Source: [Flexibacter] sp. ATCC 35208
GTDB taxonomy: Bacteria; Bacteroidota; Bacteroidia; Chitinophagales; Chitinophagaceae
Length of the DNA stretch: 64,000 nt
Reading direction: 5' to 3'
Assembly: GCF_001975825.1 (NCBI RefSeq)
Contig: NZ_MTKN01000047.1
Span: forward strand, 1 to 64,000
Part shown: piece after piece, positions 1,534-63,571 of the stretch
How the letters are laid out: every line of letters begins with the position of its first letter
Position numbering within the stretch: position 1 is the stretch's first letter
The notes under the pieces: generated by a model
The model's database searches: none
What the model saw: only the letters and a program-made list of their open reading frames with translations
What the model was told of the DNA's origin: nothing
Program-made: the position numbers and the translations under genes

Positions 1534-1621
1534 TTAATATCTGCCTATTGAATTATATCAACGGTAATAAGAATCAACTTTATCCGCTAATAATTCTTAG
1601 TGTCGGTTTCGAGTTTTCTAA

Positions 1622-1657: not shown

Positions 1658-1665
1658 ATTTAGCG

Positions 1666-1704: not shown

Positions 1705-1749
1705 GAATAATTTTTGATAAGACCTGCCATTAGATCTCAAATACGAAAG

Positions 1750-1779
1750 AAGCCTTCAGATTTTTACATCTGAAGGCTT
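1750..1779 (-). terminator. tRNA-Ser terminator
   Basis: Twelve-base perfect arms (1750-1761 and 1768-1779) lie about 30 bases beyond the 3' end of tRNA-Ser in its direction of transcription. It is the presumed native terminator of that tRNA. Confidence 0.6.
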
Positions 1780-1811
1780 TAATATTTCCGAAACTGGTCA
1801 AGTTTCTTCGG

Positions 1812-1896
1812 CGGAGAAAGAGGGATTCGAACCCCCGGACCTGTTACAGTCAACGGTTTTCAAGACCGCCGCATTCGACCGCTCTGCCATTTCTCC
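1812..1896 (-). tRNA. tRNA-Ser (anticodon UGA)
   Basis: On the minus strand the gene begins GGAGAAA, which pairs with the 3' TTTCTCC (seven-base acceptor stem) followed by a G discriminator. The anticodon loop reads CTTGAAA between GCGGT and ACCGT, giving anticodon TGA. A long variable arm of class II type and the T-arm GGTTCGAATCC are present. CCA is not encoded. This is the intact member of a small array; degenerate copies lie to its left. Confidence 0.93.
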
Positions 1897-2044
1897 GGTG
1901 CAAAAGTAGGAAACTGGAACAATTTTCAAAAAAAAATTTTCAAGTCCCCCCTCATCACGCACGAAAATCCAACCGTAGTCTGCATTTGCAAAGAAAAAAA
2001 ACCTATTTTTAAGAACTAAAATGTTTACCCGGACGACTTAAAAC

Positions 2045-4075
2045 ATGCTAATTAAGAAATTTTTCCTGTACCACCTGTTGGTGCTGGCTCTTATGAAAAC
2101 TGCTACAGCGCAAACCTGTACCTCCATCGGCCAGACTCCCTCCACCGCCTTCCCGGTCTGTGGTACAAAATCTTTTATTCAGCAATCCGTCCCCGTCTGT
2201 GTCACCCACGAAATTCCCGGACCAAATTGTAACGTGCCCGGCGATGGCACCCACACAGACGTCAATCCTTACTGGTATAAATTCACCTGCTATACTTCCG
2301 GCACCCTGGGCTTTACCATCACCCCCAATACATTATCCGACGACTACGACTGGCAGATCTTCGACATCACCAACAAAACAGCTGATGCTGTTTTTACTGA
2401 TAAGTCATTGTATGTCTGTATGAACTGGTCAGGCGAAGGCGGTAAAACCGGCGCCTCTTCTGCCGGCACCTCCCTGGATGTATGTGGTGGCTATGGACAG
2501 CCACTCTTCAGTAAGATGCCCACCATCACCAAAGGACATAACTACCTGTTACTAATCAGTCACTTCGATGGCGATTCGCAAAGCGGGTACAGCCTTTCCT
2601 TCGATGGCGGTACCGCAGATATTACAGATCCGACTGTTCCGGAATTACAGTCAGCAACTTACCGCTGTCTCAATAATACCATCAAGGTGGCCCTCACCAA
2701 AAAGGTCAATTGTACGACCCTCGCTGCAGATGGCAGTGACTTTACTTTCGTAACCACAGGCGGTTACCAGGTAACCGGCGCTTCCAGCACACAGTGTAGT
2801 AATGGGTTCGACCTGGATACCATCACGCTCACCCTCAATACCACACTGCCTTCCGGAGATTATATCATTGCCGCTCAGGCAGGTACAGATGGCAATACAT
2901 TGGCGAATACCTGTGGCAACCCGGTACCTGTGGGTGATACGTTGCATTTCCATATTGGCACGCCATCAGTGGTCACCACCGTTTCGGATGTAACTACCGG
3001 CTGTGCTCCGGACCAGTTAAAAGTAGGACTATCCTCCCCGGTACGATGTGGATCTATCGCGGCCGATGGTAGCGACTTTACCATAAGCGGACCCACAACA
3101 GTGAGTATTACAGCCGCTTATGGCCTTTGTGACAGCGATAACCTGACGGATACAATCGTGCTGCAACTCTCCCGCCCTATCTATACAAAGGGCAATTATA
3201 GCGTCACTATCAAAAACGGCAGTGACGGCAACACCTTGCTAGGTGAATGTGGCCAGTCGGTACTATATCCTCAAACCACTGTTTTTCATACGGCCGATAC
3301 CGTAAATGCGGCTTTCTCTTACACCAGGAATATCAATTGTAAGATCAGTACCATTGATTTTTCGCATGATGGCGCCCACGATGTAAACAGCTGGCTATGG
3401 ACATTTGAAGATAGTTCCACCGCTACCACACAGGAAGTGGTGAAGGTGTATAATTCCTTTGGCGTCAAAACCGCACAACTGATAGTGTCCAACGGTGTAT
3501 GTACAGATACCGCATTTACCAGCATCACCTTTGAAAAAACACTGGGCGCCTACTTCACAGTAGATCCTGGACCATACTGTCCACTGGATGTAGTGATGGC
3601 GAAAGACAGTAGTTATGGCAATATCATCCGTTACTACTGGGATTATGGCAATGGGGTAACCAGCGTCAGCCCATCTGCAGAGCCACAACAATACTTCCCG
3701 ACCAGCAGGGAGCAACAATACCTGATCCGGTTAATTGTGGAAGACGAACTCCATTGCAAGGACACTGCCGATCATTACATTACAGCTGTAACGAGTTGTT
3801 ATATAGATGTTCCGAATGCATTTTCTCCCAATAATGATGGAGTGAATGATTATCTTTATCCACTGAACGCATACAAAGCGATAGACCTGTATTTTGCTGT
3901 ATATAACCGCGTAGGACAACTGGTATTTGAAACCACCGACTGGACCAAACGGTGGGACGGAAATGTAAAGGGACAACCTGCCGATATTGGCACTTATGTG
4001 TGGATGCTCAGGTACACAGTGAAAGATTCCGGAAAGAAGATTTTTAGAAAAGGGACAGCCACCCTGATAAGATAA
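2045..4075 (+). CDS. Secreted T9SS substrate with PKD domains and type B sorting domain
   Basis: A 676-residue secreted protein. Residues 1-22 form a signal peptide ending in TATAQ. Two related modules of about 100 residues follow (roughly 200-300 and 310-405), each with a CxTxAADGSDF-type motif, resembling repeated immunoglobulin-like or bacterial Ig modules. Two PKD-like domains lie at about 420-500 (LWTFEDSS) and 500-585 (YYWDYGNG). The last 80 residues are a gliding-motility/T9SS type B C-terminal domain, starting at FSPNNDGVNDYLYP and ending in a basic tail, which sends the protein to the surface through the type IX system. Cys-rich pairs in the N-terminal region suggest disulfides outside the cell. 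No enzyme domain is visible, so it is probably an adhesin or structural surface protein. It lies 22 bases before the amidohydrolase, possibly co-transcribed. Confidence 0.87.
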   Translation: MLIKKFFLYHLLVLALMKTATAQTCTSIGQTPSTAFPVCGTKSFIQQSVPVCVTHEIPGPNCNVPGDGTHTDVNPYWYKFTCYTSGTLGFTITPNTLSDDYDWQIFDITNKTADAVFTDKSLYVCMNWSGEGGKTGASSAGTSLDVCGGYGQPLFSKMPTITKGHNYLLLISHFDGDSQSGYSLSFDGGTADITDPTVPELQSATYRCLNNTIKVALTKKVNCTTLAADGSDFTFVTTGGYQVTGASSTQCSNGFDLDTITLTLNTTLPSGDYIIAAQAGTDGNTLANTCGNPVPVGDTLHFHIGTPSVVTTVSDVTTGCAPDQLKVGLSSPVRCGSIAADGSDFTISGPTTVSITAAYGLCDSDNLTDTIVLQLSRPIYTKGNYSVTIKNGSDGNTLLGECGQSVLYPQTTVFHTADTVNAAFSYTRNINCKISTIDFSHDGAHDVNSWLWTFEDSSTATTQEVVKVYNSFGVKTAQLIVSNGVCTDTAFTSITFEKTLGAYFTVDPGPYCPLDVVMAKDSSYGNIIRYYWDYGNGVTSVSPSAEPQQYFPTSREQQYLIRLIVEDELHCKDTADHYITAVTSCYIDVPNAFSPNNDGVNDYLYPLNAYKAIDLYFAVYNRVGQLVFETTDWTKRWDGNVKGQPADIGTYVWMLRYTVKDSGKKIFRKGTATLIR

Positions 4076-4097
4076 GATAACCTAAATTAAATTTACG

Positions 4098-5804
4098 ATG
4101 AAGAGCCCTTGTTTGCTGCTGGCAGCACTATGCCTGACTGTGTCAGCAGCAGCCCAGACGATTTGCATTGCCCATGTGAACATGATAGATGTGAAAAAGA
4201 ATGTGACCCTGCCAGACCAAACCATTATAATTACAAAGGATCGCATTGTCACCACCGGCCCTGCAAATAAAGTAAAAGCCCCCGCTGATGCCACCGTCAT
4301 TGATGGCACAGGCAAGTATATCATGCCGGGGATGACAGATGCACATATTCACTTCTTTCAGAGTGGAGGTTTGTATACACGCCCTGATGCGATCAACCTG
4401 ACCAATTATCATCCTTATCAAAAAGACCAGGATTATGTAAAAGCAAACCTGAGCGACCTCATGGCGAGATACCTGGCTTGTGGGATTACGTCTGTCATAG
4501 ATGTAGGTGGTCCCATGGCTAATTTTGAAATCAGGGACAGAGCGAATAGCGATTCCGCAGCGCCGACAACATGGGTGACGGGCCCCCTGGTTTCTACCTA
4601 CCTGCCGCAGAGACTGGATGAAAAAGATCCGCCGATTGTGAAAGTGACCTCTCCGGAAGAAGCGAAGAGACAGGTGCAAAAAGAGCTGCCTTATAAACCG
4701 GATTTTATCAAGATATGGTATATCGTCTATTCCGGACATAAAGCGGATAGTACTTTGCCCATTGTGAAGGCCGCTATTGCAGAAAGCCATGCCAATGGAC
4801 TGAAAGTAGCAGTGCATGCTACACAGTACGAAACAGCCAGACTCGCGGTAGCGGCGGGTGCCGATATTCTCGTACATAGTGTGGATGATGCTGTTATGGA
4901 TGGTGGCATGCTGAAGATGCTGAAGGATAAACATATCCTGTATATTCCAACACTGAGGGTGATGGATGGATATTACAGGGCAATGATACAACGACAGCCA
5001 TTTACCACGCATGAACTGGCCTATAGTGATCCTTTTATGCTGGGTACGCTGACTGATTTGCTGCATATGCCTGAAGCATATGATTATAAAGCGGCGCGTG
5101 GTTTTATTCATGTACCGAACAAAGCAGATACGATTATGGCCACTAATTTAAAACTGGCTCAGGATGCAGGTGTATTGGTAGCGGCAGGTACGGATGCGGG
5201 AAATATTGGTACTCTGCATGCCAGTTCTTTTCTGGAAGATTTGTTGGCCATGCAAAAAGTGGGTTTGAGTAATGCTGAGATTATTAAGGATGCGACATTG
5301 AATGCAGCGATCGGTTTTGGAAAAGAGAAAGATTATGGGAGTATAGAGAAAGGGAAAATCGCTGACCTGATCTTGTTGGAAAAGGATCCTTTACTCGATC
5401 TGAATGTGTTGGGGAACGTATCGATGACTATTCATAATGGAAAGATCTTTACTAAAGAAAAATTATTGCCGGTGACACCGGAGATACTCGCACAGCAACA
5501 ACTGAATGCGTATAATGCGGGGAACCTGGAAGCTTTTCTGGCGCCTTATAGTGATAGTGTGAAGATCTATGATCAGGCAAGTGGTAAATTGTTACTGGAA
5601 GGTAAAGAGGCGATGAGGAAAAGTTATGGACCGCTTTTTAAAGCAGCACCGGAATTACATTGTCAGGTGGTGAAGAGGATTGTGGCAGGGAATACAGTAG
5701 TGGATGAGGAACGGGTAACGGGGATAAAAGATAAGGCGCTGACAGCGGTAGTGATTTATACTATTGATCATGATAAAATAGTGAAAGTTGCAATGGCGAT
5801 GTAG
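4098..5804 (+). CDS. Secreted amidohydrolase family protein with C-terminal NTF2-like domain
   Basis: A 568-residue exported metal-dependent hydrolase of the imidazolonepropionase-like amidohydrolase group (COG1228). The signal peptide ends at SAAAQ (residue 20). The metal-binding HxH lies at 83-85 (DAHIHFF), a candidate carbamylated lysine in FIKIWY near 205, further histidines in VHAT (about 240) and HSVDD (about 262), and the catalytic aspartate in GTDAG (about 367). Residues from about 455 on (AYNAGNLEAFLAPYSDSVKIYD) look like a SnoaL/DUF4440 NTF2-fold domain, an uncommon addition. The substrate cannot be told; relatives cleave dipeptides, cyclic imides or small amides. It acts in the periplasm. 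The start ATG is 22 bases after the preceding stop. Confidence 0.85.
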   Translation: MKSPCLLLAALCLTVSAAAQTICIAHVNMIDVKKNVTLPDQTIIITKDRIVTTGPANKVKAPADATVIDGTGKYIMPGMTDAHIHFFQSGGLYTRPDAINLTNYHPYQKDQDYVKANLSDLMARYLACGITSVIDVGGPMANFEIRDRANSDSAAPTTWVTGPLVSTYLPQRLDEKDPPIVKVTSPEEAKRQVQKELPYKPDFIKIWYIVYSGHKADSTLPIVKAAIAESHANGLKVAVHATQYETARLAVAAGADILVHSVDDAVMDGGMLKMLKDKHILYIPTLRVMDGYYRAMIQRQPFTTHELAYSDPFMLGTLTDLLHMPEAYDYKAARGFIHVPNKADTIMATNLKLAQDAGVLVAAGTDAGNIGTLHASSFLEDLLAMQKVGLSNAEIIKDATLNAAIGFGKEKDYGSIEKGKIADLILLEKDPLLDLNVLGNVSMTIHNGKIFTKEKLLPVTPEILAQQQLNAYNAGNLEAFLAPYSDSVKIYDQASGKLLLEGKEAMRKSYGPLFKAAPELHCQVVKRIVAGNTVVDEERVTGIKDKALTAVVIYTIDHDKIVKVAMAM

Positions 5805-5861
5805 GATTGTTGCAGTGGGATAGTGTAAATTGATTGCTTTATTACCTTCAAAATAACATGT

Positions 5862-5990
5862 ATGAAAAAGCAACAAGCGAAAAAGCTGAACCTGCAGAAG
5901 ATTAAAATTGCAAATCTGAATGTGAGTAAAGGTGAGAAGAATGTAGCGCCGACTACTACGGTTTGGTTGAGTTTGAAGAATCTTTGCTGA
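5862..5990 (+). CDS. Putative class I lanthipeptide-like precursor peptide
   Basis: A 42-codon gene reading MKKQQAKKLNLQKIKIANLN for its first 20 residues, then a GEKN region and the C-terminal part APTTTVWLSLKNLC. The lysine-rich start and the KLNLQKxKIANLN pattern match the leader of Bacteroidota class I lanthipeptide precursors (pinensin-like leaders of Chitinophaga). The C-terminal part has three Thr, one Ser and a terminal Cys that could form one (methyl)lanthionine ring. A strong terminator follows within 20 bases, so it forms a compact unit. No dehydratase, cyclase, protease or exporter gene is in the window, so it would be an orphan precursor matured elsewhere. The call rests on leader resemblance only. 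Confidence 0.6.
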   Translation: MKKQQAKKLNLQKIKIANLNVSKGEKNVAPTTTVWLSLKNLC

Positions 5991-6007
5991 GTGATTAAAT
6001 CATTGTC

Positions 6008-6055
6008 AAAATGAGAATGGGATTGGCTTAAAAGTCAATCCCATTCTCATTTTTT
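6008..6055 (+). terminator. Strong terminator after the precursor peptide
   Basis: Perfect 18-base arms (6008-6025 and 6036-6053) with a 10-base loop, followed by a T run. It ends the transcript of the small peptide gene and perhaps of the amidohydrolase. Confidence 0.85.
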
Positions 6056-6117
6056 GTGCAATATCATTCATTATTATGGACTTTAAAAAAAACATACGAC
6101 ATTTGAAAGAAATGAAA

Positions 6118-6163
6118 AAGCCCGCCATCCGACCAAAGATAAAACGGGCTTTTATTTTGTAAC
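6118..6163 (+). terminator. Terminator-like hairpin (AAAGCCCG...CGGGCTTT)
   Basis: Short arms AAAGCCCG and CGGGCTTT separated by about 20 bases and followed by TTATTTTG. A second small hairpin, TGCAGGG/CCCTGCA, lies at about 6171-6188. Together with the hairpin near 6330-6358 (GGCCTGGG/CCTGGGCC with G-U pairs) this stretch from 5991 to 6488 is unusually rich in hairpins. It holds no gene other than the doubtful one at 6199. Confidence 0.4.
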
Positions 6164-6198
6164 CTGCAGGGCCGTAACCCTGCAAAAAATTTGAGATA

Positions 6199-6303
6199 AT
6201 GAAAAAGAAACGAAAACCTCCGCGATGTTTTTGGGAGGTATTCCCTATTATTTTAAAATTGTTACCGGTCATTATTGATTTATTACACAATCATCGATGG
6301 TAA
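6199..6303 (+). CDS. Possible small hydrophobic peptide
   Basis: A 34-residue frame with a basic start (MKKKRKPPRCFWEV) followed by a hydrophobic segment (FPIILKLLPVIIDLL) and a polar end. The pattern, basic head plus one short membrane helix, is like small membrane peptides, including type I toxins, but chance cannot be excluded. It lies between two hairpins with no clear partner RNA. Confidence 0.25.
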   Translation: MKKKRKPPRCFWEVFPIILKLLPVIIDLLHNHRW

Positions 6304-6488
6304 CAGAAAAATTTAATTACATTCATCATAAACGGCCTGGGAATTCCTTCCTGGGCCTTTTCTATTTCATTGATACCAAAGATAAGAATATATTCATAAT
6401 TACACTCCGATTATCAACTCAGAAAATATTTATACAAAAATGATAATTTCAATATCATATCCAATTTAATTTCGCCAACATCAGCAAG

Positions 6489-6728
6489 CTATTTTGCAGC
6501 TTTTTTTTCTTCAATCATTCTCTCAGCAAGATGAATAAGGTCTTCATTATAATATTTATTCTCTTTATCAAACGCAGCCCAAACGGTATTTCTATGGAAT
6601 GGTCTGCCATCTTCTCTCAATTCACCACTACGCTCTTCAATAGCTTTAAGAGTGATCCGATAGTTTTTCAATTTAGCTCGAACAATCCCCTTCTTTACTT
6701 TTTGCTGGCGGGTGGTTAATACGGACAT
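6489..6728 (-). CDS. Small basic hypothetical protein, divergent partner of the HTH regulator
   Basis: A 79-residue protein with a lysine/arginine-rich first half (TTRQQKVKKGIVRAKLKNY) and a stretch HRNTVWAAFDKENKYYNEDL that resembles the recognition region of small phage-type DNA-binding proteins. I do not recognise a named family. It is transcribed away from the gene at 6898, with 169 bases between the two starts that are packed with repeated TCACTGTGA-like motifs. This is the classic layout of a cI/cro-like switch or an antitoxin with its regulator. The start chosen is the first ATG, at 6728. Confidence 0.6.
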   Translation of the reverse strand: MSVLTTRQQKVKKGIVRAKLKNYRITLKAIEERSGELREDGRPFHRNTVWAAFDKENKYYNEDLIHLAERMIEEKKAAK

Positions 6729-6760
6729 GAGTAATTTTTATATTTATATTTGCTAAAATC

Positions 6761-6878
6761 TCACTGTGAAAATCACTATGGAAAATACTGTGATAAATAC
6801 CGTGAAATTCACTGTGGACGTGATACAATAAGATTTAAATTCATCAAATTATTCAACGTGAAATTACAGTTTTTCTGT
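6761..6878. promoter_or_regulatory. Operator array between divergent regulators
   Basis: Within about 120 bases the GTGA-containing motif recurs: TCACTGTGA at 6761, TACTGTGATA at 6786, TACCGTGAA at 6798, TTCACTGTGG at 6808, ACGTGATA at 6818 and AACGTGAAA at 6855. The 13-base string AAAATCACTATGG occurs at 6769-6781 and again at 6889-6901, where it contains the start codon of the rightward gene. A small inverted repeat, ACAGttttTCTGT-like, lies at 6866-6878. The spacing and shared core point to cooperative repressor binding. Confidence 0.6.
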
Positions 6879-6897
6879 ATAAAAATAAAAAATCACT

Positions 6898-7311
6898 ATG
6901 GCAGCAAACCAGCTAACTGAACGGTTTATAGACCTTTTTAATATCCTGAAAAAAATTAAAGGACTTCCTGCTAACAAAATTTTAGCTTCAGAACTGGGAT
7001 ATAAAACTGGAAATTCAATTACTGAAATCTCAAAAGGAAGGCAGAATATTACATTAAAAGCAGTTCAGGCTTTCTGTGATATTTACGGAAAAAAATATGG
7101 TTTTTCTATTGACTATTTTATTAGAAGTGAAGGAAGCCAATCAGAAATAAAAACCTTGATCGAAGAAGAAAGAATTACACGCGAATTTTATATGGATCAA
7201 TTTGCTGAACTAAAAATGGAGCTTGCCGAGTTAAAAGGCCAATCATTCTCCCGGGAAGATTATAGAAAAAAACTATCAGCAAAATTAAAGGCCAAACTTC
7301 AGGGGGATTAA
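6898..7311 (+). CDS. Helix-turn-helix transcriptional regulator with coiled-coil tail
   Basis: A 137-residue protein. Residues 10-75 form a helix-turn-helix: the segment ASELGYKTGNSITEISKGRQ is the turn and recognition helix region, then NITLKAVQAFCDIYG. Residues 85-137 are charged and predicted helical (EEERITREFYMDQFAELKMELAELKG), probably a coiled coil for oligomerisation. It resembles Bacteroidota XRE-like regulators of mobile elements. The operator array lies directly upstream, and one repeat copy overlaps the start codon, which suggests autoregulation. It is AT-rich like the preceding gene. Confidence 0.75.
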   Translation: MAANQLTERFIDLFNILKKIKGLPANKILASELGYKTGNSITEISKGRQNITLKAVQAFCDIYGKKYGFSIDYFIRSEGSQSEIKTLIEEERITREFYMDQFAELKMELAELKGQSFSREDYRKKLSAKLKAKLQGD

Positions 7312-7314
7312 ATA

Positions 7315-7725
7315 TTACATCAACTCCAACTCCTCCCCTGTCAAACCATAAAACAAATTCTGCAACTGATGCACATACACCATTGACCTCCCATACGGCA
7401 CCAACCCTGCCGGTGACTCTGCCAGCATTTGAAAAGAATACCCCTCATCCCGGATATAAACACTATCCTTGTGCGTATACCGATAAGAATATACGTTGAT
7501 ATCCTCCCCATACTCCCGCTCCCCCCTCACAAAACCCAACGCATTCAACTGATCCACCTCCAACTTTAACGGATTCACTTTTGCCAATGGCAACTTGCTT
7601 TTCGGCAGACAGGAATTATAGACATACCCTTCCAATATACCTTCTATTTTGAAAGTAGTTTCATTCATATACAAATCATAGTAATAAACTAAATTCCCCA
7701 CACGGATGTCTGTATCTGCTATCAT
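7315..7725 (-). CDS. Hypothetical phage-type Bacteroidota protein
   Basis: A 136-residue cytoplasmic protein with an N-terminal RVGNLVYYYD segment and a C-terminal HQLQNLFYGLTGEELEL. This pairing (RVGNLV ... HxLQNLYxxLTGEEL) is common in short uncharacterised proteins of Bacteroidota genomes and prophages. The function is unknown. It lies 3 bases beyond and converges on the HTH gene, so the two may belong to the same acquired block. Confidence 0.7.
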   Translation of the reverse strand: MIADTDIRVGNLVYYYDLYMNETTFKIEGILEGYVYNSCLPKSKLPLAKVNPLKLEVDQLNALGFVRGEREYGEDINVYSYRYTHKDSVYIRDEGYSFQMLAESPAGLVPYGRSMVYVHQLQNLFYGLTGEELELM

Positions 7726-7793
7726 TTACAAAACTTTGTTATGCAATTATAGGTATTTTGTCTATTTTGACGACCTACTAATTTTAATTATTG

Positions 7794-8276
7794 ATGCCCA
7801 CTATCAGAACAATGGAACAGCGAGACAATAGCGCACTCGCAAAAATAATCAGGGACATCTTCATTGAATTCGACGCACCTTTGATCGGAACAGTTTATGA
7901 CGATCCGAATACAGATAGATTGTATGAAGTTTTCCAACACCCCGGATGTGTTTATTATTTAGCAGAAGAAAATGGAGAAGTATTAGGAGGATGTGGATTG
8001 TACCCTACAGATGGATTGCCGGATAAATGTGCAGAACTCGTGAAGTTTTATCTTTCTCCTGCAGCACGTGGAAAAGGATTAGGGAAAATATTAATGGAGC
8101 AGGCTATTGCCGCGGCACCCGGATTGGGATATAAGGAGATCTATTTAGAAACATTTGATCAACTGGCGACTGCGGTGGGAATGTATGAGAAAGCAGGATT
8201 TAGAACACTGGAAAAACCGGTGGGAAATTCAGGACATTATAATACCACCCTGTGGATGATAATGGACGTGAAATAA
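7794..8276 (+). CDS. GNAT family N-acetyltransferase
   Basis: A 160-residue GNAT acyltransferase. The acetyl-CoA binding motif A is seen as LSPAARGKGLGKILMEQAI (about residues 86-104), followed by the motif B region EIYLETFDQLATAVGMYEKAGF. It transfers an acetyl group from acetyl-CoA to an amine; the substrate is unknown. The open frame begins at a TTG at 7791, but the ATG at 7794 is the more likely start. A bidirectional hairpin follows immediately. Confidence 0.85.
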   Translation: MPTIRTMEQRDNSALAKIIRDIFIEFDAPLIGTVYDDPNTDRLYEVFQHPGCVYYLAEENGEVLGGCGLYPTDGLPDKCAELVKFYLSPAARGKGLGKILMEQAIAAAPGLGYKEIYLETFDQLATAVGMYEKAGFRTLEKPVGNSGHYNTTLWMIMDVK

Positions 8277-54591: not shown

Positions 54592-56766
54592 ATGACGAAG
54601 AAAAAACCACTTGCGAAAAACTCCCCAAAAGACAATACGGGTCAGCCAGCATCTTCCGAAACGGCCAAGACCATCGACCTACAGCCACAGACCATCGATG
54701 CAACAGATCAAACCATGAATACGAACCAGGGCACACTGATCAATGATGATATGAATACCCTCAAAGCAGGCGACCGGGGACCTTCTTTACTGGAAGACTT
54801 CATTTTCAGAGAGAAAATGACACACTTCGATCATGAGCGCATTCCGGAACGTGTGGTACATGCACGCGGCGTTGGTGCCCATGGGGTATTCCGGGTATAC
54901 GAATCACAGGCAGATATTACTAAGGCAGGGTTCTTAAACGACCCCTCCAGAGAAACACCCGTATTCGTCCGCTTCTCTACGGTTGCAGGCAGCAGAGGTT
55001 CTTCTGACCTGGCCCGCGATGTAAGAGGCTTTGCCGTAAAGTTCTATACACAGGAGGGAAATTTTGATTTAGTAGGCAATAACATACCTGTGTTCTTTAT
55101 ACAGGATGCCATGAAATTTCCAGACCTGATCCATGCGGCCAAACCAGAGGCAGACAATGAAATACCACAGGCGGCTACGGCACATGATACTTTCTGGGAT
55201 TTCATTTCCCTGATGCCGGAGAGTACACATATGGTGATGTGGGTGATGAGCGATCGTGCTATTCCACGTAGCCTTCGTATGATGGAAGGATTTGGTGTAC
55301 ATACCTTCCGCCTGATCAACGAAGCAGGTCAGTCACACTTTGTAAAGTTCCACTGGAAACCTATACTGGGTGTACATGCTGTAGCATGGAATGAAGCGCT
55401 GAAGATCTCTGGTATGGACCCTGATTTTCATCGCCGGGATCTCTGGAATGCTATTGAAAGCGGGAACTACCCTGAGTGGGAACTGGGCATACAGGTGATT
55501 GCAGAAGAAGATGAACACAAATTTGACTTTGATATATTGGATCCTACCAAGATCATCCCGGAAGAATCTGTGCCGGTACAAAAGATAGGGCGACTAACAT
55601 TGAACCGCAACCCGGACAATTATTTTGCAGAAACAGAACAGGTAGCATTTCATGTGGGGAACATTGTACCAGGTATTGATTTCTCTGATGATCCATTGAT
55701 GCAGGGAAGACTGTTTTCTTACACGGATACACAGCTGATCCGGTTAGGAGGGCCTAACTTTCATGAAATTCCGATTAACAGACCTATAGTCCCTGTATAT
55801 AACAATCAGCGGGATGGGCATATGCGCCAGACCATTAATAAAGGGAAAGCGAATTATAGTCCGAACACTGTTGGAGGTGGTTGTCCTTATCAGGCAATGA
55901 TGAAAAATGGTGGTTTCAGTTCTTTTCCTGAAAGAGTAGATGCGAATAAGATCAGACAACGCAGCAAAAGTTTTATGGATCACTTTAGCCAGGCAAAGTT
56001 ATTCTGGTATAGTCAGAGTGACTATGAAAAGAATCACATCATTGATGCATTGAGTTTTGAACTGGGTAAAGTACAGACGAAGGCGATACGTGAAAGGATG
56101 TTGCGAACATTGGTGCAGGTGAATGATAAACTGGCGGCGGCAGTAGCTTTTGCGTTGGGTATGCCGGTGCCCGATGAACCCGTAGTGAATGAAGGAAAGC
56201 CTGCTGATGGAAATCCCAAACACTACGCCAGCATCATACGTGAGCCTGATGTAAAATTCTCTGCAGCATTAAGTATGGCGCATACAATTAAAGATAGTAT
56301 TCTAACCAGGCAGATTGCAGTGCTGGTAGCCGATGGGGTGAGTGCAACTTCGCTAAATACCGTAAAGAACAAGCTGATGGCAGCAGGTGCGGTAGTAGAA
56401 ATTATTGCGCCCAGGCAAGGGTACATTCAAACAGCAGAAGGAGATGCGATCGAAGTGGATAAGAGTTTTCTGACGAGTGCATCTGTGTTATATGATGCAG
56501 TGTATGTGCCGGGGGGAGTAGATAATGTGATTGCTTTGCAGGATGAACCGGATGCGATTCATTTTCTGAATGAAGCATGGAGGCATTGTAAAGCGATTGC
56601 GTTTGATGCGGATGCGGAGCCTGTTTTAAAGGTGACTTATATTAAAGAGAAGGCGGCAGGGTTAATTATTGGTGACGATGCGGCAACACTGGCAGACGAG
56701 TTTATAAAAGCGGTGCAGCAGCATCGCTTCTGGGAAAGAGAGACAGCGAGAAAGGTACCCGCTTAA
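54592..56766 (+). CDS. katE: Large-subunit catalase (HPII/KatE type)
   Basis: A 724-residue clade 2 catalase. Residues 1-60 form the extended arm. Key features: the essential His in RVVHARGVGAHG (about 83), the distal FVRFSTVAGSRGSSDLARDV region and Asn of VGNNIPVFFIQDA (about 155), and the heme-ligand Tyr in GRLFSYTDTQL (about 373). Residues about 580-715 are the DJ-1/PfpI-like domain of large catalases (RQIAVLVADGVSATSLN, DAVYVPGGVDNV). It decomposes hydrogen peroxide in the cytoplasm. It is a single-gene unit followed by a terminator. Confidence 0.97.
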   Translation: MTKKKPLAKNSPKDNTGQPASSETAKTIDLQPQTIDATDQTMNTNQGTLINDDMNTLKAGDRGPSLLEDFIFREKMTHFDHERIPERVVHARGVGAHGVFRVYESQADITKAGFLNDPSRETPVFVRFSTVAGSRGSSDLARDVRGFAVKFYTQEGNFDLVGNNIPVFFIQDAMKFPDLIHAAKPEADNEIPQAATAHDTFWDFISLMPESTHMVMWVMSDRAIPRSLRMMEGFGVHTFRLINEAGQSHFVKFHWKPILGVHAVAWNEALKISGMDPDFHRRDLWNAIESGNYPEWELGIQVIAEEDEHKFDFDILDPTKIIPEESVPVQKIGRLTLNRNPDNYFAETEQVAFHVGNIVPGIDFSDDPLMQGRLFSYTDTQLIRLGGPNFHEIPINRPIVPVYNNQRDGHMRQTINKGKANYSPNTVGGGCPYQAMMKNGGFSSFPERVDANKIRQRSKSFMDHFSQAKLFWYSQSDYEKNHIIDALSFELGKVQTKAIRERMLRTLVQVNDKLAAAVAFALGMPVPDEPVVNEGKPADGNPKHYASIIREPDVKFSAALSMAHTIKDSILTRQIAVLVADGVSATSLNTVKNKLMAAGAVVEIIAPRQGYIQTAEGDAIEVDKSFLTSASVLYDAVYVPGGVDNVIALQDEPDAIHFLNEAWRHCKAIAFDADAEPVLKVTYIKEKAAGLIIGDDAATLADEFIKAVQQHRFWERETARKVPA

Positions 56767-57345: not shown

Positions 57346-58215
57346 ATGGCAACAGACATAGCGAAGCTGCTTCAAAAGAAGCAGAAAAAGATTATGGAAA
57401 ACTGGATGAACGCCCAGCTTTCCAACGTCAGCCTTAGGGAAGACCTAATGAGTAACGAAGACCTTAGAGAACAATCCACTGAACTCTTAGACACACTTTT
57501 AAAAGTATTATCTGAGAAAAATCTCAGCAATTTTGAATCTACTGAATTTGAACCCGTTCATGAACTCCTGGCCGGGGTATCTCATTCCCGTGCTCAACAA
57601 GGATTTACCCCTTCCGAAACTGGTGTTTATATTTTTAGTTTGAAAGATGCCCTGCTATCGACTTTACTCACTGATTTGAAGGATGATCCGGCTACCCTGG
57701 TCGATGGTGTGATCAGAATAGGTAAGCTGATGGACTATCTCAGTGTGGTTGCATTTGAAACTTTTATCAAGGGAAGAGAAGAAGTTATTCTGCGCCAGAC
57801 AGATGAGATCGCAGAAATCTCCACTCCTGTGATTCGTATATGGGATGGCATTCTCGCCCTGCCTATTATTGGCACCCTGGATAGTTCCCGTACGCAGGTA
57901 GTAATGGAGAGCCTGCTGCAGGAAATTGTGGAAAGTGGCAGTACAATTGCCATATTGGATATTTCAGGTGTGGCTGCTGTAGACTCACTGGTAGCACAGC
58001 ACCTGATCAAAACTGTTGCGGCGACCCGCCTGATGGGTGCAGAGTGTATTATTAGCGGTATCCGTCCTGAAATTGCACAAACAGTGGTTCACCTGGGTAT
58101 CGATCTTTCCAATATTATTACCAAGGCGACACTCGCCAGTGCGCTCAAACAGGCGTTTGGTATGTTGAGACTGAGTGTAAAAAAATTGGAATTCACAAAT
58201 AAAACAGCTATTTAA
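57346..58215 (+). CDS. rsbR: RsbR-type stressosome protein (RsbRD domain + STAS)
   Basis: A 289-residue co-antagonist of the stressosome. The N-terminal helical RsbRD sensory domain covers about 5-150 (LLQKKQKKIMENWMNAQL, FIKGREEVILRQTDEI). The STAS domain covers about 160-275: PVIRIWDGILALPIIGTLDS, AILDISGVAAVDS and GIRPEIAQTVVHLGIDLSNI. Thr246 matches Thr205 of Bacillus subtilis RsbRA, and Ser214 stands at the place of Thr171; both are the phosphorylation sites for the RsbT kinase. RsbR and RsbS build the large signalling complex. It is the first gene of a six-gene operon. Confidence 0.93.
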   Translation: MATDIAKLLQKKQKKIMENWMNAQLSNVSLREDLMSNEDLREQSTELLDTLLKVLSEKNLSNFESTEFEPVHELLAGVSHSRAQQGFTPSETGVYIFSLKDALLSTLLTDLKDDPATLVDGVIRIGKLMDYLSVVAFETFIKGREEVILRQTDEIAEISTPVIRIWDGILALPIIGTLDSSRTQVVMESLLQEIVESGSTIAILDISGVAAVDSLVAQHLIKTVAATRLMGAECIISGIRPEIAQTVVHLGIDLSNIITKATLASALKQAFGMLRLSVKKLEFTNKTAI

Positions 58216-58218
58216 TAT

Positions 58219-58620
58219 ATGGATCGTATTCCTATACTTCGTATGGGGAACCTGTTACTGGTGACCATACAGATAGATCTGTACGACAGGTTAGCGACCA
58301 ATCTGGAGACAGATTTGGTACAAATGGTAAATAAGACCGAAGCGAAAGGTGTATTAATAGATATCTCCGCATTATCCATCGTCGATTCTTTTATGGGCCG
58401 TATTCTTGGCAACATTGGTTCTATGTCCAAAATTATGGATGCCGAAACCGTTGTTGTAGGTATGCAGCCGGCTGTCGCTATTACGCTGATTGAACTTGGG
58501 CTGGAACTCAAGGGCGTACATACGGCTTTGAATGTAGAAAAGGGAATGGAATTATTAAAGGGAAAAATTAGTAATTATGAAGATGACCTAACAGAAGACG
58601 ATGAAGATAGTACTGAATAA
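58219..58620 (+). CDS. rsbS: RsbS-type STAS anti-sigma factor antagonist
   Basis: A 133-residue single STAS domain. The start RIPILRMGNLLLVTIQIDLYD and the phosphorylation motif VLIDISALSIVDSFMGR match RsbS; Ser57 corresponds to Ser59 of Bacillus subtilis RsbS. The C-terminal tail is acidic (DDLTEDDEDSTE). RsbS holds RsbT inactive in the stressosome until it is phosphorylated. Only 3 bases separate it from rsbR, and its end overlaps the rsbT start by 20 bases. Confidence 0.93.
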   Translation: MDRIPILRMGNLLLVTIQIDLYDRLATNLETDLVQMVNKTEAKGVLIDISALSIVDSFMGRILGNIGSMSKIMDAETVVVGMQPAVAITLIELGLELKGVHTALNVEKGMELLKGKISNYEDDLTEDDEDSTE

Positions 58621-59014
58621 GGACCGTATGCTAATCGAAAGAGAACAGGATGTGGTTCCATTCAGGAATCGTGTAAAAGAGTATGCGGTGAAAATTGGAA
58701 TGAGTCTTGTGAACCAAACCAAACTGATCACAGCCGCCAGTGAACTTGTCCGCAATATGCTGAAATATGCCAATGGTGGAATTGTGTTGATTGAGGTACT
58801 CACCCAGGGCAGAGATAGTGGAATCCGGCTTGTCTTTACCGACAAAGGACCGGGGATTAAAGATATTTCGCTAGCTATGCAAGATGGCTATTCCTCCGGC
58901 AAAAGCCTGGGGATTGGCCTACCCGGTACCAAACGACTGGTCAATGAATTTGAAATCAAAAGTATAGTCGGCGAAGGCACAACTGTTTCAATTATTAAGT
59001 GGAAGAATGGATAA
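58601..59014 (+). CDS. rsbT: RsbT-type serine/threonine kinase (GHKL ATPase)
   Basis: A 137-residue GHKL-fold kinase. The ATP-binding boxes are complete: ASELVRNMLKYA (N-box, Asn52), DKGPGI (81-86) and SLGIGLPGTKRL (about 102-113). It phosphorylates RsbS and RsbR and is then released to switch on a partner. In Bacillus subtilis the partner is RsbU; here the neighbouring RsbT-phosphatase fusion or the histidine kinase would be candidates. It overlaps both neighbours (20 and 8 bases), so translation is coupled. Confidence 0.93.
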   Translation: MKIVLNKDRMLIEREQDVVPFRNRVKEYAVKIGMSLVNQTKLITAASELVRNMLKYANGGIVLIEVLTQGRDSGIRLVFTDKGPGIKDISLAMQDGYSSGKSLGIGLPGTKRLVNEFEIKSIVGEGTTVSIIKWKNG

Positions 59015-60014
59015 AAACATACACCTGGCGCTCAATGCATCTGAGCGAAGCTATTTTGCTATATTAAAAAAAGAAATCCATACTATGGCAATCGCTGGCG
59101 GACTTTCTGAAAAGCGGGTTGCAGAGATCGATATTATTGTGGCAGAAATAGTGACCAATCTGGTCAAACATGCAGGTGGCGGCCAGGTACTAGCTAAACT
59201 CATCCAGGAAAACGGCGAAAAAGGCATAGAACTGATCAGTATTGACAACGGCCCCGGTATGACGGATGTGACCCGGATGGTAGCAGACGGCGTATCTACA
59301 AAAAAAACACTGGGGCAGGGTCTGGGCGCCATGAAAAGGCTCTCCGATGTATTCCAGATCTATTCTAATAAGAACTGGGGTACCATCATCCTGATCAGGG
59401 TATTCAATAAGCCACCGGTCAAAGCCTTTAAAACAGAGATCAGATCCGTAATCATCCCTAAACCAGGCGAAACTGAAAGCGGAGATAATTTGTACTCTAT
59501 AGTAGACAAAAACCACGTGAAATTATTCCTGGGAGATGGTCTGGGCCATGGCCCCGAAGCGGCGAAAGCCATGCGTGTAGCCGGAGAAGCATTTATGGAA
59601 TGCACGCATACCAACCCCGTAGAAATCATCAGGTATATTAATTTAGCTGTCAAACGAACAAGGGGAATGGTAGGCACTGTCGCGGTTTTTGACCATGCCG
59701 CCAGGAAATGGCGCATCTGCGGAGTGGGTAATATTATCACAAAAGTGTACAATCCGGAAAGCAACAAAAACTACCTGGCGTACAACGGTATCATTGGACT
59801 CAATGTTCCCAATACCCTCAATGCCCAGGAAATTCCTTACGAAGATGGTCAGTATATCCTGATGTCAAGCGATGGTCTCAAAACGCGTTGGGAGACTTCA
59901 AAGTATACATCCATAATGCGTTACGATCTTTCTATTCTATGCGCTTCTCTCATTAAAGACTTTGCCCGCCTCACAGACGATATGTCGGTAGTGGCGTGCA
60001 AAATAAACTTGTAA
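59007..60014 (+). CDS. RsbT-like ATPase fused to a PP2C-type phosphatase (RsbX-like)
   Basis: A 335-residue fusion. Residues 1-135 form an RsbT-like ATPase with intact boxes (EIVTNLVKHA, DNGPGM at 80-85, TLGQGLGAMKRL at 101-112). Residues about 145-335 are a SpoIIE/PP2C-type phosphatase: metal-binding GDGLGHG (176-182), the MSSDGL motif (about 296) and TDDMSVVAC (about 323). This matches the RsbX role of dephosphorylating RsbS and RsbR and so resetting the stressosome, but the kinase-like domain is an addition. It could compete with RsbT for the STAS proteins. It starts 8 bases inside rsbT. Confidence 0.88.
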   Translation: MDKNIHLALNASERSYFAILKKEIHTMAIAGGLSEKRVAEIDIIVAEIVTNLVKHAGGGQVLAKLIQENGEKGIELISIDNGPGMTDVTRMVADGVSTKKTLGQGLGAMKRLSDVFQIYSNKNWGTIILIRVFNKPPVKAFKTEIRSVIIPKPGETESGDNLYSIVDKNHVKLFLGDGLGHGPEAAKAMRVAGEAFMECTHTNPVEIIRYINLAVKRTRGMVGTVAVFDHAARKWRICGVGNIITKVYNPESNKNYLAYNGIIGLNVPNTLNAQEIPYEDGQYILMSSDGLKTRWETSKYTSIMRYDLSILCASLIKDFARLTDDMSVVACKINL

Positions 60015-60018
60015 TCTC

Positions 60019-61650
60019 ATGCACGAACTTGCCCGGGTGACCCTTGAGAATGAAATGGATCTCATACTTGCGCATAAGCGCTCTATGAAACTGGCAGAAC
60101 TGGCCGGTCTCTCCCTGTCGGCACAAACAACTTTTGCTACTGCCGTGTCCGAGGTGTCAAGAAACGCCATCGACAGCGGCAAAAGAGGTAGTCTCATTCT
60201 AAGCGTAGAAAGCGATCTGCGGGAAAAATTCATCGTAGCCTGTCTAAAAAATGAGCAACAGAACAACGCCCGGGAAGGTCTTGAACATGCCAAAAAACTG
60301 GTTAATAAATATAAAGTATCTACTAATGGTCCGGAGACCAGCATCGAACTCTTTTATACCATCTCCCCTGCTTTCCGTATAGATATACAAAAGCTGGATG
60401 AGTGGCGGAGTCTCTTTCGCAATGAACCTTCTATCTCCCCTTACGAGGAACTGAAAAGGAAGAATGAACAGCTGCAGGAACTTTCAGAAAAAGTGCAGAA
60501 AAGTGAAGACCAGTACAAGGTGCTTACCAATTCACTCCCCCTTATGATCTTCTCGCTCGACGATCACGGACAATTGCTCTATGCCAATGACTGGCTGTTA
60601 CACTACACAGGTCAAAACCTGAATAGTCTCAACAACAGCAAATGGAAAACCATCGTGCATGCTGATGATTATGACGCCTTCTGTCTGCTGTTGCAGAATG
60701 ATATTACACGGGGTGCAACCACCATCAAGATACAGGCAAGGCTGATGAACAAAAGTACCAGCGATTACCTCTGGCACCAGATCTCCCTGTCACCACTCAA
60801 TGGAGATAAGGAAGAGCCCAGTTACCGTATCGGGTTTATGGTCGACATCCATGCACAGAAAACGGTAGAGGAAACGCTGAAAGATAACTACGAATTAAAA
60901 CAGGCGGAAAAGAAACTGAAAGATAACCAGCATACACTGGAACAGTATATTGAAGAACTGAACCGCAGTAACCAGGAGCTACAGCAATTTGCCTTTGTAG
61001 CTTCTCATGATCTGCAGGAACCGGTACGTAAATTGCTCTTTTATAGTGACTACCTGCTGAATAAATACCAGGCTTCTTTTGATGAGAAAAGCCTGCATTT
61101 CCTGAACAGTATACAGGGCGCTTCCCGCAGAATGCGATCATTGATTCAAGACCTGTTACTCTTCTCACAAATCAATAAAGAACAGATTCAGTTCCAGGAA
61201 GTTGACCTGAATACGGTAGCGACAGATGCCTGCCAGGATCTGGAAATGGCGATTGAAGAAAAGAATGCCGCACTCAATATTCAATCACTGCCAAAACTCT
61301 ATTGTGACGAACGTATGATGCGGCAGCTGTTTGGCAATATCATCAGCAATTCATTGAAGTATAGCAAGGATGCCCTGGCTCCTCAGATAGATATTTCTTA
61401 CAAGCAGGAGAACGGGCATATTGAACTTATATTCAGGGACAACGGGATTGGATTTGATGAAAAGTACCTGCCTAAAATGTTCACCCTCTTTCAGCGCTTA
61501 CATACACGACAAACGTATGAAGGCACAGGATTGGGACTGGCCATATGCAGGAAGATCGTAGAAATGCACCAGGGGAAAATATGGGCTACCTCAGAAGAGG
61601 GATTAGGTGCAACCTTTTTCATTTCTTTGCCTACACATCCGATTATTTAA
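60019..61650 (+). CDS. Histidine kinase with degenerate RsbT-like N-terminal domain, PAS, HisKA and HATPase
   Basis: A 543-residue cytoplasmic sensor kinase. Residues 1-115 resemble an RsbT kinase domain: LENEMDLILAHKRSMKLAEL and the N-box-like SEVSRNA (Asn49) are present, but the DxGPG and GxGLGxxK boxes are lost (residues 73-95 read VACLKNEQQNNAREGLEHAK). A coiled coil (about 140-165) leads to a PAS domain (about 165-285). The HisKA phosphoacceptor is His330 in VASHDLQEPVRKL. The HATPase boxes are NIISNSLKYS (Asn444), DNGIGFDEKYLPKMF (Asp474) and GTGLGLAICRK (502). It lies 4 bases after the fusion gene. The dead RsbT domain may dock on the stressosome. Confidence 0.92.
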   Translation: MHELARVTLENEMDLILAHKRSMKLAELAGLSLSAQTTFATAVSEVSRNAIDSGKRGSLILSVESDLREKFIVACLKNEQQNNAREGLEHAKKLVNKYKVSTNGPETSIELFYTISPAFRIDIQKLDEWRSLFRNEPSISPYEELKRKNEQLQELSEKVQKSEDQYKVLTNSLPLMIFSLDDHGQLLYANDWLLHYTGQNLNSLNNSKWKTIVHADDYDAFCLLLQNDITRGATTIKIQARLMNKSTSDYLWHQISLSPLNGDKEEPSYRIGFMVDIHAQKTVEETLKDNYELKQAEKKLKDNQHTLEQYIEELNRSNQELQQFAFVASHDLQEPVRKLLFYSDYLLNKYQASFDEKSLHFLNSIQGASRRMRSLIQDLLLFSQINKEQIQFQEVDLNTVATDACQDLEMAIEEKNAALNIQSLPKLYCDERMMRQLFGNIISNSLKYSKDALAPQIDISYKQENGHIELIFRDNGIGFDEKYLPKMFTLFQRLHTRQTYEGTGLGLAICRKIVEMHQGKIWATSEEGLGATFFISLPTHPII

Positions 61651-61661
61651 TTGCTTACCTT

Positions 61662-62069
61662 ATGAAATGTGGAAAAATACTGGTTATTGACGACGACTCT
61701 GAAGATATGGCTATTATCAGAGAAGCCATGGAAATGATCAATGCTGATCATGTGATGATGTTTGCCGAAGGTGGCGAAAAGGCCCTGCAATTGCTGGACA
61801 CACGCTTTAGCGCAGAACACATAGTTCCTTGTCTGATCGTACTGGACCTGAACATGCCAAAGATGAACGGTACGCAGACACTGGCAAACCTGAAGGCAGA
61901 TGACCGCTTCAGGAATATTCCTGTTATCATCTACTCTACCTCTATTAATCCTTTTGAAAAAGCGAAATGTGTCACCTTAGGTGCACATGCGTATATTACC
62001 AAACCTGTATCTGTCAAAGAAAGTCTGGAAACAGCGCAGGTGTTTCTGAATTTCTGCCAGGCAGATTGA
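61662..62069 (+). CDS. Single-domain response regulator (REC)
   Basis: A 135-residue receiver domain. The frame is open from 61545, but the ATG at 61662, 12 bases after the kinase stop, is the natural start. Acidic pocket Asp10-Asp12 (LVIDDDSEDM), phosphoacceptor Asp62 (LIVLDLNMPKMNG) and the Lys in AYITKP near 111 are present. No output domain follows, so it signals through protein contacts, most likely with the kinase of the operon or a chemotaxis-like or sigma partner elsewhere. It ends the operon. It belongs to the group with a D-D-x-x-D start seen in light- and stress-response kinases. Confidence 0.92.
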   Translation: MKCGKILVIDDDSEDMAIIREAMEMINADHVMMFAEGGEKALQLLDTRFSAEHIVPCLIVLDLNMPKMNGTQTLANLKADDRFRNIPVIIYSTSINPFEKAKCVTLGAHAYITKPVSVKESLETAQVFLNFCQAD

Positions 62070-62212: not shown

Positions 62213-63571
62213 TTAACGTGGCGCATTCCATAGTTTTTCCAGTTGCGTAAATCCGTGAATAGCATGCGCAGGGAGTGTTTCTCCTTTTTCTCCAAACACA
62301 TACATCGCGGCGGGTTGTTCAATAGTTATTTTGGTTTCGTCTGCGGCGGTAATATTAAGTTGTAGATATTTAGCCATAAATTCATATACTGCTTTGCGCT
62401 TGTTGCTACCAAAGTCATGGCCTTCTGCAGGCAGGTGTACATTGGATACTTTGCCGGTCTGGCCGTAGTAGCCGTAGATCTTTTGCAGGTAAGGGAAGTC
62501 GTGTTCGGGCATTTTATCTGTCCAGTCGCCGCCATCGCTGACTAACAACTGTGGTCTGGGAGCTGCCATAGCAGCGATTTCTACGTTGTCCGTTCTATTC
62601 CCGCAACCATGTATGGGCATCCCACTTTCGCAGGGGCAACCACCATAAAAATAAGAACTGATGGCCACTACAGGTGCACTCACTTTGATACGGTCATCAA
62701 TAGCTGTCATCAATACCGTATGACTCCCTGCCCCTGAACCACCTGTAATACCGACTCTACTGGTATCTGCATTTTTAAGAGACAATAAATAATCGAGTAT
62801 CCTGATGGTGCCAAGCGCCTGTACACTCATGGCCAGACTACGACGGTGATCGGCTTCTTCAAATTGCAACTGAGATTCACCCCATGCAAATAGATCGTAG
62901 CTGAAAGCCATAGCACCCATGCGTGCTAAGGCAGCACAGCGATATTGACAGTCCGGTCTGTATCGCTGATCTTTCCAATGCCCGTCGGGATTGAGGATCA
63001 CAGGAATCTTTCCTTTGCTTTTTGCAGGTGCGTACAGTGAACCATTAATATACACACCTGGCAGTATTTCTATGGCAATGTTACGTACAGTGTATCCATC
63101 AAACTTTCTTTCGGCAGTAATGATCGGTGCAGATGCAGGTTTAGGTGGTAATGGAGACAATTGTAATGCCTGTAAGATACAGGGTTGTAGTGTTGCTTTC
63201 CTGTTTTCCCATTCCTGTTCGTTATGATATTGCGAAGCGATCCGGTCCAGCTCTGCCCAACCATCGGCAACAGGCCAGCGATAGTATTCATAATTGGTAA
63301 GGCGGTATTGCTTATCCTTTTCCTTTCTTACTTTCAGATCGAGTGGTGCGAGTACACGCTCAAGCGTCGCCTCTGCATCCGGTCGATACCGCCAGTCCGC
63401 ATAAGTCACATACTTACCGGCTACCTCTGCCTCCGTGTATCGGATTTTAATACCATAGCGGTGCTGGATATCGAGTAGTACATCCTGCAAGGGTTTCTTA
63501 TACCCGCTGTCAGAGTTTTGCTGTGCATAGGCACATTGTACCAGTAACAGGCAGAAAAGCAATCTTATCAT
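62213..63571 (-). CDS. Secreted alpha/beta hydrolase with STN domain
   Basis: A 452-residue exported protein. The signal peptide ends at AYAQ (residue 17). Residues about 27-92 form an STN-like domain (LQDVLLDIQHRYGIKIRYTE, ATLERVLAPLDLKVRKEK), usually found in SusC receptors and FecR proteins. The rest is an acetylxylan-esterase/abhydrolase_7-like catalytic domain: NPDGHWKDQRYRP near 190, nucleophile Ser in GITGGSGAGSH near 275, and HDF near 385 as the likely His (the acid lies in SDGGDW near 345). It may remove acyl groups from glycans; why it carries an STN module is not known. A single-gene unit. Confidence 0.82.
   Translation of the reverse strand: MIRLLFCLLLVQCAYAQQNSDSGYKKPLQDVLLDIQHRYGIKIRYTEAEVAGKYVTYADWRYRPDAEATLERVLAPLDLKVRKEKDKQYRLTNYEYYRWPVADGWAELDRIASQYHNEQEWENRKATLQPCILQALQLSPLPPKPASAPIITAERKFDGYTVRNIAIEILPGVYINGSLYAPAKSKGKIPVILNPDGHWKDQRYRPDCQYRCAALARMGAMAFSYDLFAWGESQLQFEEADHRRSLAMSVQALGTIRILDYLLSLKNADTSRVGITGGSGAGSHTVLMTAIDDRIKVSAPVVAISSYFYGGCPCESGMPIHGCGNRTDNVEIAAMAAPRPQLLVSDGGDWTDKMPEHDFPYLQKIYGYYGQTGKVSNVHLPAEGHDFGSNKRKAVYEFMAKYLQLNITAADETKITIEQPAAMYVFGEKGETLPAHAIHGFTQLEKLWNAPR

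Follow-up and report, generated by a model that had tools for sequence, protein, structure and literature searches.

A conserved stressosome operon of Bacteroidota encodes a histidine kinase with a degenerate RsbT paralogue at its N-terminus

We describe a six-gene operon at positions 57,346–62,069 on the + strand of a 64,000-nucleotide (nt) stretch of DNA from [Flexibacter] sp. ATCC 35208 (contig NZ_MTKN01000047.1, positions 1–64,000), referred to below as the window. The operon encodes the stressosome proteins RsbR, RsbS and RsbT, an RsbT/RsbW-like ATPase domain fused to a phosphatase (TX), a histidine kinase and a lone receiver, an order that a first-pass annotation had read from the letters of the sequence and that the open reading frames (ORFs) and Pfam matches confirmed. 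The N-terminal domain of the kinase, HKn, is an RsbT paralogue in which the ATP site is gone while the signature of RsbT helix 2 persists. A directly coupled histidine kinase may be the output of this stressosome, in that its dead RsbT domain would dock on the STAS core and thereby gate kinase activity; we put this forward tentatively, as a reading with close to an even chance.

HKn comprises residues 1–116 of the kinase (60,019–60,366, + strand). The N-terminus of the window's kinase, searched alone, gave nothing meaningful in Pfam or NCBIfam, and its likeness to RsbT was therefore tested separately. The Pfam family HATPase_c_2 does not match the window's HKn and matches only one of 23 HKn members (E-value 5.5e-4). 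BLASTP against the RsbT of the window gave an E-value of 6e-8, with 30 of 124 positions identical. In profile–profile comparison with hhalign, for which the RsbT and TX alignments held 18 of the 23 rows each, the 23 HKn sequences aligned to RsbT with a probability of 97.6% (E-value 2.8e-12), compared to 51% (E-value 1.5e-4) for the TX ATPase domain. These values, together with the separate clades described below, ruled out HKn as a copy of the ATPase domain of the phosphatase. When 395 Bacteroidota genomes were scanned with the HKn profile, 23 matches were obtained: eight in HKn kinases, among them that of the window, 14 in RsbT frames and one in a second kinase of genome G245. The same profile had no match among the PDB sequences.

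An AlphaFold2 model of HKn, made from the 23 sequences, had a mean predicted local distance difference test score (pLDDT) of 87.6 and a predicted template modeling score (pTM) of 0.80, and showed the secondary-structure order E-H-H-E-E-H-E-E. The model matched RsbW with a Z score of 15.9 and a root-mean-square deviation of 2.0 over 107 aligned residues, and SpoIIAB with Z scores of 13.2–14.1; further matches were related anti-sigma kinases, followed at lower scores by SiaB (11.8), LvrC (10.2) and the catalytic domains of histidine kinases (≤8.6). The modeled HKn is an α/β domain matching RsbW and not a four-helix bundle of the RsbU_N type, and the model and its structure matches also ruled out that HKn has an unrelated fold or is PAS-like. 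The first-pass annotation had named an N-terminus unrelated to GHKL folds in structure prediction as a finding that would refute it, and the model did not refute it. Its third, degenerate RsbT-like domain is borne out by the BLASTP and hhalign matches, the profile scan, the RsbW-like model and the retained signature.

In a phylogenetic tree, the 23 HKn domains formed one clade (support 100/100) and the TX domains formed their own (support 100/96), while the RsbTs joined RsbTs that are not fused, at a fork with weak support, given few columns and long branches. Loci L094–L102, in which no HKn kinase was found, entered only the tree and the U/Y groups. The second kinase found in genome G245 (L086, 4669–5979) has an RsbT-like N-terminus in which the ATP motifs DEGPGI and GMGIGL are present, lies outside the HKn clade, and is preceded by another histidine kinase within the same stressosome operon. 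Since it has ATP motifs and falls outside the clade, the fusion of RsbT to a kinase may have arisen more than once, or L086 may retain an early state. With its intact RsbT-like domain and its position in the tree, this kinase was excluded from the 23-row HKn counts.

The ATP site has decayed throughout HKn. Among the 23 HKn sequences, the N-box Asn is present in 4 and the Asp of the DxGxG motif in 12, of the two glycines of that motif one is found in none and the other in one sequence, and all 23 have a deletion in place of the ATP lid; the labels N box, lid and G2 are those we take to apply to these motifs. By comparison, all 23 RsbT and all 23 TX domains retain the N-box Asn, the DxGxG Asp and both of its glycines, and the glycines of G2, in agreement with the earlier distinction between two RsbT-like domains with an ATP site and one without. 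HKn lacks the intact set of N-box Asn, DxGxG, lid and G2 box that would indicate serine kinase activity. Judged from its sequence, HKn is a pseudo-RsbT rather than an RsbT, because the N-box Asn, the DxGxG glycines and the lid have been lost. The window's own HKn retains the N-box Asn (N49), which is kept in 16 of 81 sequences; what marks this copy as degenerate is the loss of the DxGxG glycines and of the G2 box, together with the deletion of the lid.

Helix 2 has had a different fate. Across the 81 HKn sequences from the window and 80 related loci, no defined position of the RsbT signature QTxxxTAxSExxR deviates in more than one sequence; the loci were collected with search patterns that did not include helix 2. 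In the 23-row alignments, the counts for HKn and RsbT, respectively, were 23 and 23 for Q36, T37, E45 and R48, 22 and 23 for T41 and S44, and 23 and 20 for A42. In TX, only E45 is kept in 23 of 23, and S44 is found in 4.

The 80 loci are the best of 173 confirmed relatives and came from a scan of contigs with the HKn alignment, after a first contig scan with TX as the query had given no match. RsbR, RsbS, RsbT and TX lie directly upstream of the HKn kinase in 74 of the 80, and TX and the kinase gene are spaced by −14 to +23 nt in 73 of these 74 complete loci. Three more are cut by the end of the contig but have TX (one has RsbT as well), and the other three have none of the four genes nearby, although one of these genomes carries RsbR, RsbS, RsbT and TX elsewhere. 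Because it recurs in 74 of 80 loci, the gene order is not due to chance. The RsbR-RsbS-RsbT-TX-kinase operon is conserved in Bacteroidota. The loci span Chitinophagaceae, Spirosoma, Larkinella, Emticicia and allies, Mucilaginibacter and Pedobacter, and Flavobacterium. All but one (79/80) bear Bacteroidota names; the remaining record, titled Williamsia sp. (L131, a metagenome-assembled genome), has operon proteins 52–92% identical to the window's and is likely misnamed. Some of the named loci are from the same genomes as the first locus set (e.g., L130 and L071), L187 and L195 are from one genome, and L138, which has two sets of RsbR, RsbS and RsbT, was counted once. This locus (Sediminibacterium roseum, 1594–8043) carries the additional RsbR-RsbS-RsbT set just ahead of the full module.

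In the 395 Bacteroidota genomes, the same eight (the window's included) carried both a strong HKn and a strong full-length TX. Matches of the TX-domain profile to PPR proteins were sums of weak repeat matches and were disregarded. The first set of relatives comprised 59 genomes, of which 10, among them that of the window, had HKn (E-value ≤ 0.001), all of them within the genus; since it occurs in only 9 of the 35 other genomes of the genus, the module is patchy there.

The whole kinase gene spans 60,019–61,650 (+ strand). HKn is followed by a conserved junction of the SPYEEIKRKN type and a linker that looked coiled-coil-like by eye (60,367–60,513), in which Y142 is conserved in 79 and E144 in 75 of the 81 sequences, and then by a PAS-HisKA-HATPase_c core (60,514–61,650; Pfam E-values of 5.4e-28 for HATPase_c, 3.6e-8 for HisKA and 1.2e-5 for PAS_3). 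The phospho-acceptor His, N box and G boxes of a histidine kinase are present according to Pfam and an alignment of the window with 23 relatives, and the catalytic His is found in all 24 aligned kinase rows, an apparent loss of the H box in short relatives being an artifact of the motif pattern. Eighteen kinases, mostly from Mucilaginibacter or Pedobacter, have frames of 396–433 residues, too short for a PAS domain. In three Emticicia loci (L175, L178 and L184), the HKn kinases are ≈690 residues long, with what appeared by eye to be a second PAS region ahead of HisKA, and the receiver gene lies before rsbR.

The receiver (61,662–62,069, + strand; Pfam Response_reg, E-value 8.1e-19) has no output domain and carries its phospho-acceptor Asp in LDLNMP. 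Its ORF is listed as 61,545–62,069, but the reading frame makes the ATG at 61,662 the likelier start, which leaves a gap of 11 nt after the kinase gene. A lone receiver had been given as part of the system; it is present in the window, but it is not universal. Among the 80 loci, a receiver lies directly downstream of the kinase in 39 and directly upstream of rsbR in 10, with both positions occupied in two, and in 33 loci, some of them truncated, neither position is occupied nearby. L197 and L199 have receivers that match only weakly, and L145 was scored as having none owing to a split kinase frame, although a receiver exists there.

The genes upstream of the kinase include a stressosome module, in which RsbR (N-terminal sensor and STAS), RsbS (STAS) and the RsbT kinase follow each other in that order, and all gaps or overlaps between the six genes are ≤20 nt when the receiver is taken to start at 61,662. 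RsbR (57,346–58,215, + strand) is a co-antagonist with an RsbRD_N sensor domain (PF14361, E-value 5.8e-28), a STAS domain (PF01740, 7.2e-14) and two phosphoacceptor motifs, VDSLVA and GIRPEIAQT. RsbS (58,219–58,620, + strand; Pfam STAS, 3.6e-7) is a lone STAS domain with a phosphoacceptor Ser in VDSFM. We take the phosphoacceptor residues of both proteins to be those corresponding to B. subtilis. Patterns for the RsbR phosphoacceptor motifs and the RsbS pattern [VI][VI]DSF were found in 74 of the 74 related loci that have the respective gene. The serine kinase RsbT (58,601–59,014, + strand; HATPase_c, 3.5e-10, and HATPase_c_2, 1.5e-8) overlaps rsbS by 20 nt and has the intact ATP-site motifs SELVRN, DKGPGI and GIGLPG. 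When the source genome (8.6 Mb in 384 contigs) was searched for further copies at an E-value of ≤0.001, RsbR matched only itself and the adjoining RsbS, and RsbT only itself and TX.

TX (59,007–60,014, + strand) joins its ATPase domain (HATPase_c_2, 2.3e-10) to a PP2C/SpoIIE phosphatase (SpoIIE, 7.4e-13), whose metal-binding Asp motifs recur in 75 related loci, with DGxGHG in 75, SDG in 73 and DD in 74; each of six TX motif patterns was present in 73–75 of the 75. TX is probably the reset phosphatase. The first-pass annotation had suggested that its ATPase domain could target the same STAS proteins. Support for this is weaker, since the domain lacks the helix-2 signature save for the Glu and stands in a clade apart; the domain might instead act as a second active kinase. 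By analogy with SypE, a second kinase activity is as plausible as pure targeting.

A promoter scan gave 11 promoter-like sites, which is at the level of shuffled sequence (mean 11.5), and nine terminator-like sites, compared to a mean of 4.4. A large catalase with a Catalase_C/DJ-1-like domain is encoded at 54,592–56,766 on the same strand, ≈580 nt 5' of rsbR. We rejected it as a member of the module and consider it probably a chance neighbor, because katE was seen in just two of the 80 relatives within the locus DNA compared. At the other end, a convergent gene (62,213–63,571, − strand) that weakly matches glucuronyl esterase recurs in one of the 80 related loci, that of Chitinophaga silvisoli (L130).

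If the dead domain does dock on the stressosome, HKn would bind the unphosphorylated STAS domains of RsbS and RsbR in the manner of RsbT, with its conserved Glu45 facing the phosphoacceptor Ser/Thr, and the kinase would thereby be carried on the stressosome. Upon stress, RsbT would phosphorylate the STAS proteins, and HKn would then lose its site, or the departure of RsbT would open one. The change would be relayed via the SPYEEIKRKN-type junction and the linker to the PAS-HisKA core, the docked state being either off or on, and the core would phosphorylate a receiver, the adjoining one where it exists. TX would dephosphorylate the STAS proteins and reset the system; the ATPase domain of TX, being intact, may contribute a kinase activity of its own or serve to bind a STAS protein. 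A further step, which we consider possible but rather doubtful, is that the tethered kinase competes through its dead RsbT paralogue with active RsbT for the same STAS sites; a widespread class of Bacteroidota stressosomes would then bear the effector on the surface, and serine phosphorylation of the STAS core would directly drive a His-Asp phosphorelay that needs no RsbT released as messenger, no sigma-B cascade and no RsbU_N.

The argument for docking draws on RsbW. In the crystal structure of the RsbV–RsbW complex, helices 1–3 of RsbW bind RsbV, with hydrogen bonds from Arg23, Asp42, Lys44/Ser48, Glu49 and Tyr118, of which Glu49 bonds the phosphoacceptor Ser56 of RsbV (PMC7340262), and RsbT has been docked on RsbS/RsbR with the RsbV–RsbW and SpoIIAA–SpoIIAB complexes as a blueprint (PMC9237128). 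Ser48 and Glu49 of RsbW are equivalent to S44 and E45 of HKn. This Glu is catalytic in active kinases, and its presence in HKn, which has no ATP motifs, fits a retained STAS contact. Docking on STAS proteins becomes likelier because the helix-2 signature of HKn is frozen and its Glu faces the STAS phosphoacceptor in RsbW–RsbV. At positions 36, 37, 41, 42, 44, 45 and 48, the mean identity is 99.5% (n = 81), compared to 33% for six ATP-site positions and 56% for the whole domain, figures that have to be read with the knowledge that the seven positions were picked after viewing the alignment and that the randomization is descriptive only.

This manner of choosing the positions is one of several points that weigh against docking. 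Positions 19, 38 and 40 of HKn, which we equate with RsbW contacts by sequence offset (19 with Arg23), are changed: a His occupies position 19 in 20 of 23 HKn sequences, and positions 38 and 40 are unlike RsbT. The ATP lid, deleted in HKn, is a likely STAS contact in a modeled relative (PMC10120452). With position 19 a His, positions 38 and 40 changed and the lid gone, the interface between HKn and the STAS proteins would be altered. The signature could also have been kept for folding. Furthermore, the HKn kinase persists in two species, Larkinella rosea (L176) and Chitinophaga costaii (L193), whose genomes at an E-value of ≤0.001 show no RsbS and, for RsbT, just weak matches in receiver or histidine-kinase frames, in searches in which two positive-control genomes matched; the C. 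costaii genome (G009) has a completeness of 99%. The HKn domains of both species carry the signature, save for T41S in C. costaii, and the signature can thus outlast the stressosome, at least temporarily. The docking on RsbS/RsbR that had been proposed at the outset keeps the frozen signature in its favor, and has to accommodate the His at position 19, the missing lid and the two species without RsbT and RsbS. As natural losses of the stressosome, these two species could reveal the role of the kinase alone.

HKn might instead bind RsbT, or the TX ATPase domain, through its helix-1/strand-1 surface, so that RsbT freed by stress heterodimerizes with HKn and switches the kinase, with HKn in the role of RsbU_N. 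RsbT is known as a messenger that leaves the stressosome to bind RsbU_N (PMC12143880), RsbW dimerizes through helix 1 and strand 1 (PMC7340262), and helix 1 of HKn is highly conserved, with D14, L15 and M23 each kept in 79 of 81 sequences, although this conservation is biased in the 80 loci by two peptide search patterns that lie in the strand-1/helix-1 region. Binding to RsbT would leave the frozen helix-2 face, with its former catalytic Glu, unexplained, and dimers of RsbT with an RsbT-like domain are unreported in the literature examined. We regard such an arrangement as unlikely.

We also considered the possibility that HKn is the sensing or dimerization domain of a histidine kinase that is otherwise ordinary and is no more than an operon partner, connected with the stressosome by transcription or through phosphorylation of the kinase by RsbT. 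The two species that retain the kinase without RsbT and RsbS would be accounted for in this way, but the tight adjacency and co-occurrence of the HKn kinase with the stressosome genes, the descent of HKn from RsbT itself and the freezing of a STAS-facing Glu in a dead domain make it improbable. Finally, HKn could bind a nucleotide or other ligand in a remodeled pocket and act as a ligand sensor. The RsbW-type fold is retained, and position 78 is Asp in 46 of 81 sequences; with the DxGxG glycines, the lid and the G2 box lost or unconserved, we consider this very improbable.

Docking of the dead RsbT domain on the STAS core would bear on how stressosomes signal in Gram-negative bacteria without sigma-B. 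If the output kinase carries a dead RsbT domain, nearly invisible to Pfam but conserved together with its operon, this would constitute a concrete and testable link from stressosome to two-component system, and the presence of the HKn kinase after the stressosome genes in many Bacteroidota suggests that stress sensing feeds directly into a two-component system with no sigma-B output. A survey of globin-type stressosomes found no RsbU_N domain in most downstream proteins (PMC9237108), and a docking rule in the style of pseudokinases may account for other orphan stressosome outputs. An RsbT-derived domain in a stressosome output kinase was not described in the titles and abstract openings among the open-licence PMC papers listed.

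Stressosomes of the RSTX type with downstream two-component or other modules, some with RsbU_N, have been described (PMC9237108, PMC12143880, PMC10014275). As in the rsbRSTX stressosomes of Proteobacteria, e.g., Vibrio vulnificus, where two-component modules lie downstream (PMC9237108; PMC10014275), an RsbR-RsbS-RsbT core and a PP2C phosphatase precede histidine kinase and receiver proteins, the presumed output, with no SigB cascade. As far as the accounts in these papers go, the proteobacterial phosphatase is a single-domain PP2C and the downstream proteins have RsbU_N or no recognized docking domain, whereas here an RsbT/RsbW-like domain is fused to the phosphatase and a dead RsbT paralogue to the kinase. 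In kinases, diguanylate cyclases and phosphatases that bear RsbU_N and are switched by RsbT (PMC12143880), a small N-terminal domain and a helical linker likewise couple a dimeric effector to the stressosome, but RsbU_N, to which RsbT binds, forms a bundle of four helices, while HKn is itself of the RsbT-type fold. TX resembles SypE of Vibrio fischeri, an RsbW-like kinase-REC-PP2C protein (PMC10120452), and Rv1364c (PP2C and RsbW-like), named in the title of structure match 3ke6, in joining a serine kinase and a PP2C phosphatase in a single chain; it differs from them in that the kinase domain is followed by the phosphatase with no intervening receiver, and in being part of a stressosome operon. 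HKn shares with RsbW and SpoIIAB its fold (Z scores of 15.9 and 14.1) and a Glu that in RsbW faces the STAS serine (PMC7340262), and is set apart from both by the loss of the ATP-site motifs and by its fusion to a histidine kinase.

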